34,001 nucleotides of DNA from an uncultured Alphaproteobacteria bacterium (GTDB lineage: Bacteria > Pseudomonadota > Alphaproteobacteria > CAAGCB01 > CAG-977): positions 1-34,001 of the forward strand of contig CALYBD010000027.1 of assembly GCA_944393745.1 (NCBI GenBank). Direction: 5' to 3'. The notes under the pieces are model-generated. The model was not told the DNA's origin and made no database searches. It was given only the letters and a program-made list of their open reading frames with translations. Below are positions 29,458-32,617 of this stretch, piece by piece (the stretch's first letter is position 1; each line of letters begins with the position of its first letter). A program made the position numbers and the translations under genes.

Positions 29458-30594
29458 TTATTTATTCAAACAACAACAACCGTCAGATGACAGAGTCATG
29501 CGTGACGGACACGTATTGACTGTTTGCGCCAAAACGCATTCGCCGTTTTCCAAATTATAGCCGTCAGAACAAGCTGTACAGGATCCTGAAACATCAATAC
29601 ATGTTTTGCAACCGGTCGGACAACGAGAGCACGCGGCGATATCACTGCGATAATAGCCTTCATTACAAGTGAAACTATCCGTTTGTTTGTTGCAAGTTGC
29701 TCCGACAGGACAGGCAAAACATGTAGGATATCCGAAAGAGTAATATCCATCTTTGCAGGTAAACGTACTTGTTCCGTCACATATTCCGAAAACTGGGCAA
29801 GCGTAACACCTTCCCCTATCAATAGTATTTTTAGGACAAACGCATTTACCGTTTTCTAAAATATATCCGCCAGCACAAGCAGTACAAGAGCCCGAGCTTG
29901 TACATGACGTACAGTTTTTCGAACAAGGAGAGCATTTGTTATAGGACGATTGATAATATCCTTTATTGCACGTTAACGTTCCCGGTGAAATGCAGGTGGC
30001 ATTTTCAGGGCAAGCATAACAATCGGGGGGACCATATTTATAATATCCGTTTTTGCATGTAAGTGCACCTCCGTTGCATATCATTGTACTTGTATCGCAG
30101 TCAAAACAGATATTGCTGTAAAGGAATTTGTTGGATTCGCATTTATTACAGGTCGATCCGTTACAGACGGCGCAGCCGTCCGGACAGCTTTTTATGCAAG
30201 AATCTCCTTCTTTTTTATATCCGGTGTTACAGGTAAAACCTGAACTTGTACAAGTCGCATTTGCAGGGCAAGGAGAACATTTATTATAATCGGATCTATA
30301 ATAACCGGATCTGCAGGTAACTGTTGATGTCCCCGAGCAGGTTGCATTTGCCGGACAGGGTTCACACCCCGGAGGGCCAAAAGTGTAGTATCCGCTGTTA
30401 CAGGTATACGTTTGTCCGTTGTTACACGTTGCATTGGCCGGACACGGCTGACAGTTCTGACCGGACAACCATTCTCCGGGATAGCAGCGATAGCAATGTC
30501 CGGCGACATACTCTCTGCACCCGGCGTACGAGAGTTCCGGCATAAGTAGTGGGATAACAAGTGTTATTACAAAAATTAAAAGTTGATTTTTCAT
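29458..30594 (-). CDS. large secreted cysteine-rich repeat protein
   Basis: Protein of 378 aa with a Sec signal (MKNQLLIFVITLVIPLLM, cleavage after SYA) and, by my count, about 56 cysteines, near 15%. The mature chain is a string of irregular units of about 28-32 residues of the form CxxCPANATCxxxxTxTCxxGYY, interspersed with GCxxCxxxxxCxxC units (CKTCIDVSGSCTAC). These resemble the furin/growth-factor-receptor and laminin-EGF-like cysteine-rich repeats of eukaryotic surface proteins. It ends SSDGCCCLNK. The frame is open to a TTG at 30627 inside the upstream terminator; the ATG at 30594 gives a normal signal peptide. Probably a disulfide-bonded surface or periplasmic protein; ligand unknown. 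Confidence 0.8.
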   Translation of the reverse strand: MKNQLLIFVITLVIPLLMPELSYAGCREYVAGHCYRCYPGEWLSGQNCQPCPANATCNNGQTYTCNSGYYTFGPPGCEPCPANATCSGTSTVTCRSGYYRSDYNKCSPCPANATCTSSGFTCNTGYKKEGDSCIKSCPDGCAVCNGSTCNKCESNKFLYSNICFDCDTSTMICNGGALTCKNGYYKYGPPDCYACPENATCISPGTLTCNKGYYQSSYNKCSPCSKNCTSCTSSGSCTACAGGYILENGKCVCPKNTIDRGRCYACPVFGICDGTSTFTCKDGYYSFGYPTCFACPVGATCNKQTDSFTCNEGYYRSDIAACSRCPTGCKTCIDVSGSCTACSDGYNLENGECVLAQTVNTCPSRMTLSSDGCCCLNK

Positions 30595-30625
30595 CTCTGA
30601 ACAATCCTTTTTGTTTCGGTTAAAC

Positions 30626-30825
30626 AAAAACCTACCTGAAAAGGTAGGCGGATGTTCAGAAACCGTATGAAAGCTTACGGCTCGGCGATTTCGCGCAAAG
30701 CCTTATAACGCCGACACCCGCCTGCTTAGGACAGAAATCGGCATAAATATTTAAAGTCGCCATATGCTATGCGACTGCCTTCAAAAGGGTTTCTGACGCC
30801 CTGGGTCGTTGATTTAAACGGCCTG
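30626..30825 (-). ncRNA. structured leader RNA ending in a terminator upstream of the cysteine-rich operon
   Basis: No protein is credible between 30595 and 30958. On the minus strand an extended -10 (TGCTATAAT, 30840-30832) would start RNA near 30825. The RNA ends in an intrinsic terminator, CCTACCT-TTTC-AGGTAGG then TTTTTG (30648-30626), 30 bases before the cysteine-rich gene. Between are a local hairpin (30755-30776, arms AGTCGC/GCGACT plus CATA/TATG), a 10-base stem 30646-30655 with 30714-30723 (one G-U pair), and a 9-base pairing 30656-30664 with 30788-30796 that would cross it, as a pseudoknot or alternative fold. The 10-base stem shares 30646-30648 with the terminator arm, a layout typical of attenuators and riboswitches. 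No known class recognised; an independent sRNA is the alternative. Confidence 0.55.
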
Positions 30826-30831
30826 AAACGA

Positions 30832-30840
30832 ATTATAGCA
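30832..30840 (-). promoter_or_regulatory. extended -10 promoter of the leader RNA
   Basis: TGCTATAAT on the minus strand is a perfect TGn-TATAAT extended -10. No clear -35 lies at the right distance. It is the only strong promoter I see upstream of the cysteine-rich operon. Confidence 0.6.
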
Positions 30841-30923
30841 AAAGAAAATCATTCAATCCAGTTTTGAATCCGAATAAAAGCTTTGATCCGGGCGGATTGT
30901 TACGATGCGTTTGGATCCGGACA

Positions 30924-30956
30924 AAAAAATCCCCGCCTGATTCGCGGGGATTTTTT
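30924..30956. terminator. intrinsic terminator after the MepM-like gene
   Basis: AAAAAATCCCCGC (30924-30936), a 7-base loop and GCGGGGATTTTTT (30944-30956). Perfect 13-base arms with symmetrical A/T tails; ends the leftward M23 gene at 30959. Confidence 0.9.
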
Positions 30957-30958
30957 CG

Positions 30959-32617
30959 TTAACCGTTACGATGTCCGACTGCTCGTGAAGCGGTTTTTTG
31001 AATCTTTCTTTTTTTGGCTTTGGCCACTTTTTTGGTCTTGGAAGGCCCTTGGTAAGCCAGTTTTCTGTCTTCCGGTGTCGGTTCGGCCTTGGCATAGGCG
31101 ATTTCTCCGGTAACATTTTGCCGCATTCTGTCACGTTCCGCAAAGAAACGAACCAGTTCTTCACCGGACAGTTTGCGCTGTGCCGTAATGCGTTGTGTCA
31201 GCGGGTTTATTTTTTTGCCGTTTTTAATCAATTCCCAATGCAAATGGGGCCCCGTTGAACGTCCCGTGTTGCCGACATAGCCGATAATATCGCCGGCTTT
31301 GACTTTTCTGCCGACACGGGATTTTTCATGAAAACGGCTCATATGCGCATAGGCGGTCGAATATTCCGAATTATGTTTGATCTGGATATACAGACCGTAC
31401 GATCCTTTGCGTTTGACTTGCGTGATCGTTCCTTCACCCGGTGCACGAATCGGCGTTCCGATCGGTGCGCCGAAATCAGCCCCCCAATGCATAATCGTAT
31501 AGCCTAAAATCGGATGTTTGCGTTGGCCGAACTTGGATGTTTGACGCGGCCGTTTTAACGGATGCAGCGTAAATAACTTCCGCGCAATTTTTCCGGTTTC
31601 GTCATAGTAATCTTCTTTACCCTGCGAATCTTTGTAGAAATAACGTTCGTGTTTTTTGGAACGCAGGCTGATGTCCGCATACAACAGAGTGCCGTTACCG
31701 GTCGGGTGACCTTCTTTGTTATATTCTTTTTGAAAAACGGCCGTAAATGTATCGCCTGTGCGCAGATCGCGCGAAAAATCGATGGGACCGTCAAAAGCCC
31801 AGATAATCTGTTGAATGACGTTGGTCGGAATGCCGGCTTCTTTGGCATTGTTGATAAAAGCGCCGTCAATAAATCCTTCGGCATATTCGGTTTTCAGATC
31901 GACTTCCGGTTCGACCATACTGGCTTCAAAAAAGTCAGCTTCTGTTCTGGCGGCCGTGTAGCGGTTGCCGTGTCTGTCTTCTAAGGTAACCAATAACAGG
32001 GCTTTTTCTTCCGTGTCCGTATTCATTTTGCCGATTTCGATCTGATCGCCGACCTGTATTTTTTTCAAATCCAAAACTTCGGACAAGGCTTCGCTGACCA
32101 GATAAATTTCCCGATTCGTCAGCCCGCCCTTTTTTAAAACAACAGACAGATTTTGGCGCGGCTTAATCGTAAAAGTTTCCAATGTGTCAGGTTGCAGCTC
32201 GACAGTCGGTTCGGCTTCTTCTTCCGGTTCCGCGCCGGCCAGCAAAGAGGCCGTTTCTTCCTGCACCAAAGGCAGGTCAATTTCCGCAATGGGGGTCAGC
32301 GTCTGTGTTTCGGCAGCGCGTTCTTTAATCAATGCAGCCGTGGCTTCGTCCGAAGAATTGTGCGCAACTGAATATTTTAATGTCCCTAAAACGGATCCGG
32401 CACCGATGATCGTTCCTGCCAAAAAAATCTGAAAAGACCGAAATTTAGAAGGGCCGGCTTTTTTATTTGAAAAAGTGTGATCCATGTCATCGGCGGCAAG
32501 ATCGGCCGCATTTTCTCCGATTTGATTAATTAGAATCCGCGCTGAACGGGCAAGCCGTTTAAAACAGTTTGATCGTTTGGCTCTGCTGTTTTCGGAAGAA
32601 TCTGTTTGCATACTCAT
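30959..32617 (-). CDS. MepM-like M23 family peptidoglycan endopeptidase
   Basis: Cell-wall endopeptidase of 552 aa. An N-terminal cytosolic part (1-58) is followed by one membrane helix (about 61-80), an acidic linker (EPEEEAEPTVELQ), an Opa-like/LysM-like region (about 148-195, FTIKPRQNLSVVLKKGGLT), a middle domain (200-350) and the M23 domain (about 355-475). All zinc ligands are present: His377 and Asp381 (HWGAD), His425 (YAHMS) and His458-x-His460 (GPHLHWE). The C-terminus is an unusual Lys-rich tail (SKTKKVAKAKKRKIQK). The layout matches E. coli MepM/YebA, which cuts D-Ala-mDAP crosslinks to let the sacculus expand. Second M23 enzyme in the window; unlike the first it is not paired with a bactofilin. 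Met3 is an alternative start. Confidence 0.9.
   Translation of the reverse strand: MSMQTDSSENSRAKRSNCFKRLARSARILINQIGENAADLAADDMDHTFSNKKAGPSKFRSFQIFLAGTIIGAGSVLGTLKYSVAHNSSDEATAALIKERAAETQTLTPIAEIDLPLVQEETASLLAGAEPEEEAEPTVELQPDTLETFTIKPRQNLSVVLKKGGLTNREIYLVSEALSEVLDLKKIQVGDQIEIGKMNTDTEEKALLLVTLEDRHGNRYTAARTEADFFEASMVEPEVDLKTEYAEGFIDGAFINNAKEAGIPTNVIQQIIWAFDGPIDFSRDLRTGDTFTAVFQKEYNKEGHPTGNGTLLYADISLRSKKHERYFYKDSQGKEDYYDETGKIARKLFTLHPLKRPRQTSKFGQRKHPILGYTIMHWGADFGAPIGTPIRAPGEGTITQVKRKGSYGLYIQIKHNSEYSTAYAHMSRFHEKSRVGRKVKAGDIIGYVGNTGRSTGPHLHWELIKNGKKINPLTQRITAQRKLSGEELVRFFAERDRMRQNVTGEIAYAKAEPTPEDRKLAYQGPSKTKKVAKAKKRKIQKTASRAVGHRNG

Follow-up and report, generated by a model that had tools for sequence, protein, structure and literature searches.

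The C4 antisense RNA is a phage immunity design. In the annotation of phage P1, a promoter is followed by the strands a1 (48255) and b1 (48269), the c4 RNA itself (48343-48419), the strands a2 and b2 (48452), and the icd ATG at 48470. The C4 of P1/P7 (RF01695, with c4-a1b1 as RF03163) matures by the action of RNase P and controls an antirepressor operon; a' and b' both have targets, a2 and b2, near the RBS, and in P1 no terminator is annotated between the antisense and its target. In A. baumannii, about 21 multi-copy C4-like Group 1 sRNAs have been described, for which processing at the C4 domain was proposed; these have been studied as sRNAs, and their targets are unknown (PMC5320573). sRNA-Xcc1 (RF02221) was described as a free sRNA of approximately 88 nt (PMC2996969) and has since been reported ahead of symE in integron cassettes (PMC12444791).

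The leader examined here lies in a window of 34,001 nt, the whole stretch of DNA analyzed, from an uncultured alphaproteobacterium. The element resembles C4 in the succession of promoter, decoys, antisense domain, RBS target, and start codon, and the distance from the antisense end to the ATG is 51 nt in P1 (48419 to 48470) and a median of 51 nt in the elements. However, the element contains b2 and lacks a2, it possesses a terminator between antisense and target, and the genes placed under its putative control are chromosomal envelope genes. It shares with the Group 1 sRNAs of A. baumannii a multi-copy chromosomal occurrence and a variability concentrated in the a' loop, whereas a cis target gene with its RBS is evident for nearly every copy of the element.

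An extended -10, a structured RNA (about 180 nt), a terminator, and a start codon, which the earlier note on this DNA had placed in this order on the minus strand, were found at 30840-30594. All window features described below are on that strand unless stated otherwise. The extended -10 promoter element TGCTATAAT is recognizable by sequence at 30840-30832; in 55 of 89 copies of the element, the 70 nt upstream contain TGnTAnnnT, usually at -33 to -39, compared with 5% of random windows. Folding predicts a 5' hairpin at 30804-30824, the sequence of which is not conserved, while hairpins of different sequence occupy the same place in other copies; transcription of the window leader would start near 30824. 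The conserved structured core of 156 nt (30802-30647) scores 176 bits with the covariance model R1 and contains six covarying helices. The putatively regulated gene (ORF at 29458-30594, ATG at 30594) encodes a secreted cysteine-rich protein of 378 aa with a signal peptide, 56 Cys, and weak Pfam similarity to Cys-rich repeat proteins. A second operon gene (ORF at 29452-29087) encodes a Cys-rich secreted protein of 121 aa, and similar second genes are present behind other copies. The TTG at 30627 was rejected as a start in favor of the ATG at 30594, as the TTG sits at the terminator and the spacing of the ATG is conserved. A GC-rich hairpin flanked by runs of A and T on both strands, located at 30926-30957, is likely a bidirectional terminator between the leader and an M23 peptidase gene (30959-32617, minus strand). 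Weak Rfam matches to Thr/Leu leaders at 30874-30960 look like chance matches to this hairpin and were set aside as a separate feature.

The earlier note had named a covariance model built from homologues as a check; R1, built from 35 element copies, uncovered a family of copies. It detects 26 copies in this genome at E<=0.01, of which 13 are complete (>140 bits), and a DNA search likewise found the element dispersed across this genome and its relatives. With R1, the element was found in 10 of the 12 genomes of the taxonomic family and in 19 of 385 genomes sampled from Alphaproteobacteria; outside the family its occurrence is sporadic, mostly in gut-associated Alphaproteobacteria. In the species collection, an exact two-block pattern matched 50 stretches; for 49 of these, the record title reads Alphaproteobacteria, Rhodospirillales, Azospirillum sp. 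CAG:239, proteobacterium, or Pseudomonadota, and the named sources are mostly rumen, caecum, and colon. Since many copies are situated no more than a few hundred bases from a contig end, the true copy number may be higher. No viral contig matched the exact pattern, and a viral origin by that pattern was rejected. It is hardly credible that the element is a dispersed MITE-like mobile repeat that happens to bring a promoter: many copies exist, contigs break at copies and insertions occur within them, but the differences among copies are compensatory, the distance to start codons is fixed, the flanks are unrelated, and the viral contigs provide no match.

The folded region of the window leader has a z-score of -5.9 (200 shuffles), and the stem-rich RNA with two crossing long-range pairings that had been described from the letters alone is borne out by the covariation of both pairings, P1 and the outer stem, among 89 relatives. 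P1, the main stem of 9-10 bp, joins UCAGAAACC to GGUUUCUGA (30796-30788 with 30664-30656); its 5' side is the decoy strand b1 (30788-30796), located in an AGGG/CCCU loop and identified by covariation. In 89 copies, P1 is 99.9% paired and shows compensatory changes in 5/9 pairs. It is crossed by the outer, C4-like stem (30722-30715 with 30654-30647), the 5' side of which, GGCGGGUG (30715-30722), is an SD-like decoy, and the 3' side of which is CAUCCGCC (30647-30654); covariation defines both sides, with 96.3% pairing and compensatory changes in 4/8 pairs. The P3 hairpin (30755-30776) also covaries, and its loop GCAUA (30767-30763) pairs with UAUGC (30745-30741). The inner hairpin UCGGCG/CGCCGA (30682-30714) is likewise identified by covariation; its UCGGC has an alternative upstream partner, GCCGA (30742-30738), and both pairings covary. 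The hypervariable barcode helix P2 is formed by a1 (30777-30783), its 5' side, all seven pairs of which covary, and by the loop strand a' (30668-30674), its 3' side, which pairs in cis with a1 only and not with downstream sequence.

The 3' side of P1 and part of the outer stem together constitute the anti-RBS strand b', GGUUUCUGAACAUCC (30664-30650), recognized by its duplex with the RBS. Behind it lies an intrinsic terminator-like hairpin (30649-30630) with a T-run (30626-30649 in total), present in 75/89 copies; GCC at 30649-30647 is common to the terminator and the crossing outer stem; the earlier note had likewise reported three bases shared with the terminator arm. An A/U hairpin, UUUUUGUUU/AAACAAAAA (30608-30630), is predicted by folding behind the terminator and belongs to one subgroup of copies only. 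The ribosome-binding site b2, GGAUUGUUCAGAG (30595-30607), is complementary to b', as judged by duplex energies.

Over the 89 aligned copies, the six helices (P1, P2, P3, the P3-loop pairing, the outer stem, and the inner hairpin) have 96.8% of cells paired, compared with 32-38% when slid. Compensatory changes occur in 29 of the 41 helix pairs, so that the absence of covariation in homologues, contemplated earlier as an argument against a regulatory RNA, was not encountered. Four of the five measures of the covariation test were unreached by any shuffle, while the number of further pair types was reached by 10/500. Four helices, P1, P2, P3, and the inner hairpin, belonged to the model that guided the alignment. 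Covariation extends to pairings absent from that model, namely the outer stem, the P3-loop pairing, and the GCCGA/UCGGC alternative.

The core could be read as the aptamer of a ligand-binding riboswitch, with the P1/RBS alternative as its expression platform. Many residues of the core are invariant, the core is pseudoknotted, and one switch precedes a functionally coherent set of genes. We nevertheless regard this reading as improbable, given that no Rfam riboswitch matches at threshold, that the envelope proteins concerned are of many kinds with no common metabolite, and that the element is related to sRNA-Xcc1 and C4, both of which are antisense RNAs.

The barcode helix behaves differently from the rest of the element. 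Each of the seven P2 pairs varies, in almost every case across the four Watson-Crick types, and the P2 word differs in every copy (13/13 in this genome and 15/15 in genome G004). P2 pairs 7/7 in cis, compared with 3.7 in trans in this genome and 4.3 in G004, and identity within this genome is 0.41 in P2 versus 0.74-0.92 elsewhere in the element. Seven a1 words (e.g., TAACTCT, TCAAGAT, and TAGAGAT) occur in both species G000 and G004; thus, the barcodes appear to be old and locus-specific and not freshly randomized. No second target for a' was found downstream or in the 100 nt upstream. This helix makes it natural to ask how a single cell prevents cross-talk among so many near-identical RNA switches.

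An ATG lies 30-75 nt past the core on the same strand in 86/89 copies. Using a simple, home-made, and crude test, we recognized a signal peptide or lipobox in 70 of the 86 proteins encoded downstream, or 82% of the 85 whose length permitted scoring; among 195 other ORFs, the count was 47 (24%). The downstream proteins include lipoproteins, an OmpA-like barrel (PF13505), and Cys-rich repeat proteins, while distant copies in a few other alphaproteobacterial families precede small HTH regulators, as in mobile elements. A plus-strand transcript was rejected, as the gene follows in the minus-strand sense in 86/89 copies and the covariation is read in that sense. 6S or another independent housekeeping RNA was likewise rejected, as the element is multi-copy and has a fixed link to genes, and no Rfam match to a 6S-type RNA was found. 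The orientation, the fixed start-codon distance, and the strong covariation support the earlier suggestion of a new cis-regulatory leader RNA.

Neither the multi-copy family nor the pairing of the P1 3' strand with the RBS had been part of the earlier note. Both the upstream decoy b1 and the RBS of the gene that follows are complementary to b', and the three strands covary with one another (0/20,000 permutations). In the window copy, the b1/b'/RBS triplet is UCAGAAACC/GGUUUCUGAACAUCC/GGAUUGUUCAGAG, and the duplex of b' with its own RBS, at -18.1 kcal/mol, is the best of 60 RBSs. Further triplets are UUCGAAAACC/GGUUUUCGAACAUCC/GGAUUGUUCGAG, AUACAAACC/GGUUUGUAACAUCC/GGAUUUUACAA, and GUAAGAACC/GGUUCUUAACAUCC/GGAGUUAAGAA. 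Across 60 distinct b'/RBS combinations, the own duplex averages -12.66 kcal/mol versus -9.16 permuted (0/20,000); when each distinct b' is represented once (n=30), the values are -11.90 versus -7.75 (0/20,000), and when each (b1, b') class is represented once (n=16), they are -12.76 versus -8.42 (0/20,000). The b1-b' pairing in the same 16 classes yields -11.83 versus -6.65 (0/20,000). These permutation tests contain no phylogeny and keep shared ancestry, but compensatory triplet classes in several lineages (e.g., L035, L023, L196, and L124) argue against ancestry alone. In a minority of the 60 combinations, the own-RBS duplex is weak (weaker than approximately -9 kcal/mol).

On the computed conservation, covariation, three-strand complementarity, and gene association, the element is probably a C4/sRNA-Xcc1-type antisense leader through which translation of the following gene is controlled; the direction of control, any processing, action in trans, and the trigger are inferred. 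Transcription of the leader would start at its own extended -10 promoter, and the antisense strand b' of the 3' domain is complementary to the RBS that follows at a distance of about 50 nt. In the intact leader, b' would be held by two decoys, b1 in P1 and the outer-stem strand GGCGGAUGU; the RBS would then be free and the gene translatable, provided that the polymerase passes the terminator. Loss or displacement of b1, whether through cleavage, truncation of the transcript, a different fold, or the action in trans of a terminated leader, would let b' bind the RBS and stop translation. The intact leader would thus be ON and the leader deprived of b1 OFF. In a 260-nt fold of the window leader, the P1 state (-86.8 kcal/mol) differs little in energy from the RBS-blocked state (-83.7 kcal/mol); P1 has a probability of 0.94 and the b'-RBS pairing of 0.01 in the intact leader, while without the 5' part the latter rises to 0.93. 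Over 86 copies, removal of b1 raises the expected number of b'-RBS pairs from 2.2 to 8.9. These fold energies omit pseudoknots, and all such values are indicative only.

The earlier note had likened the arrangement to an attenuated leader; the corresponding rival is a switch at the level of transcription, in which an antiterminator formed by the leader would govern the terminator. The terminator-like hairpin with its T-run holds a fixed place in 75/89 copies, it shares GCC with the outer stem, and it sits between antisense and target, unlike in P1 C4. Yet the alternative partner of b' is the RBS and not the terminator, and neither terminator arm exhibits copy-specific complementarity to the core (cis -9.06 versus -9.17 and -11.35 versus -11.29 permuted), so an antiterminator is not supported. 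The evidence favors a translational switch, and we consider attenuation very improbable.

The terminated leader of approximately 190 nt could itself be the product, as a member of a trans-acting sRNA family for which the cis RBS would be the main target among many paralogues. The element has its own promoter and terminator, the b' of most copies fits the RBSs of sister copies too (off-diagonal mean -9.1 kcal/mol), and the approximately 21 multi-copy C4-like sRNAs of A. baumannii offer a parallel (PMC5320573). Set against this are the fixed cis position of the gene in 86/89 copies and the better fit of the own RBS; hence, we hold this reading possible but doubtful, and it is compatible with the cis antisense leader. 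A more speculative and rather unlikely extension of that antisense leader is an addressable network, in which the private P2 barcode would secure self-folding, the shared b' would reach sister RBSs, and leaders terminated and acting in trans would render the expression of paralogous surface proteins mutually exclusive or coordinated.

The window leader has no Rfam match at curated thresholds, and to this extent the earlier statement that it could be matched to no known riboswitch class stands; its relationship to sRNA-Xcc1 and its C4 layout, however, qualify that statement. The window copy matches the 3' half of RF02221 below threshold (34.6 bits, E 2e-4), and such matches recur in other element copies. 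Of the 16 RF02221 matches in this genome (E<=10), the 15 highest-scoring all fall in elements, at 24-41 bits, the best score of 40.7 bits being below the curated 53. Conversely, R1 matches two sRNA-Xcc1 loci over both halves (E 3-5e-4). It does not find P1 C4; the best match of C4 (RF01695, cut-off 45) in this genome, 20.1 bits, lies outside any element, and c4-2 (RF02944, cut-off 41) has no match in this genome. Like the element, sRNA-Xcc1 loci have a GGGG-b1-CCCC-a1 strand upstream, and their antisense strand is complementary to the RBS. In 30 sRNA-Xcc1 loci, the antisense strand scores -22.1 with its own downstream RBS region versus -17.8 permuted, and -33.6 with the upstream strand versus -24.9 permuted (0/10,000 each), whereas a 5' control strand is no better than permuted. 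The variable a' loop of sRNA-Xcc1 pairs with the RBS region too, whereas b' alone does so in the element; sRNA-Xcc1 also precedes phage or integron genes with no terminator evident before the RBS, while the element has a terminator and envelope genes. Because of the RF02221 and R1 cross-matches and the shared layout, but with no C4 or c4-2 match, we call the element a divergent relative of sRNA-Xcc1, C4/sRNA-Xcc1-like and a member of neither Rfam family.

The sRNA-Xcc1 loci L058-L087, from other Proteobacteria, share the upstream hairpin ACCGCA..TGCGGTATTTTTGTG with the P1 c4 leader, which suggests placing sRNA-Xcc1 in the C4 clan. The Rfam model RF02221 seems to represent no more than the 3' half of a C4-like leader and to lack the 5' half. 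sRNA-Xcc1, until now treated as a free sRNA of unknown role, is tied to a cis-acting C4-like switch with a target amenable to testing. An antisense leader design of phage immunity has apparently been taken over for cell-surface control, with up to approximately 26 copies per genome that would govern lipoproteins, outer-membrane proteins, and secreted proteins in gut Alphaproteobacteria that are genetically little studied.

Several copies are interrupted. In L017, L176, and L021 (genomes G002, G011, and G007, respectively), the 3' end of the element breaks at GGTTTCTGA|TTATGGGGACAAG, and a tyrosine recombinase of 395 aa (PF00589, E 1e-20) begins approximately 180 nt past the break; it seems that the RNA element serves integrative elements as an attachment site. 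L038 and L048, both at contig ends, share one breakpoint, GGCGGA|TCAACCCAGTTAAAAAG..., as though an insertion sequence preferred this place in the outer stem. In L050 and L182, which come from two different genomes, the palindromic insert ..GTCCGATAGAGAGTTGCAACTCTCTATCGGAC.. disrupts the element. In L036/L194 (G000:C25:37375-37516), the 5' half, comprising the promoter, b1, a1, and P3, is replaced by other DNA, while the antisense strand, terminator, RBS, and gene are retained; under the proposed model, this gene would be silenced.
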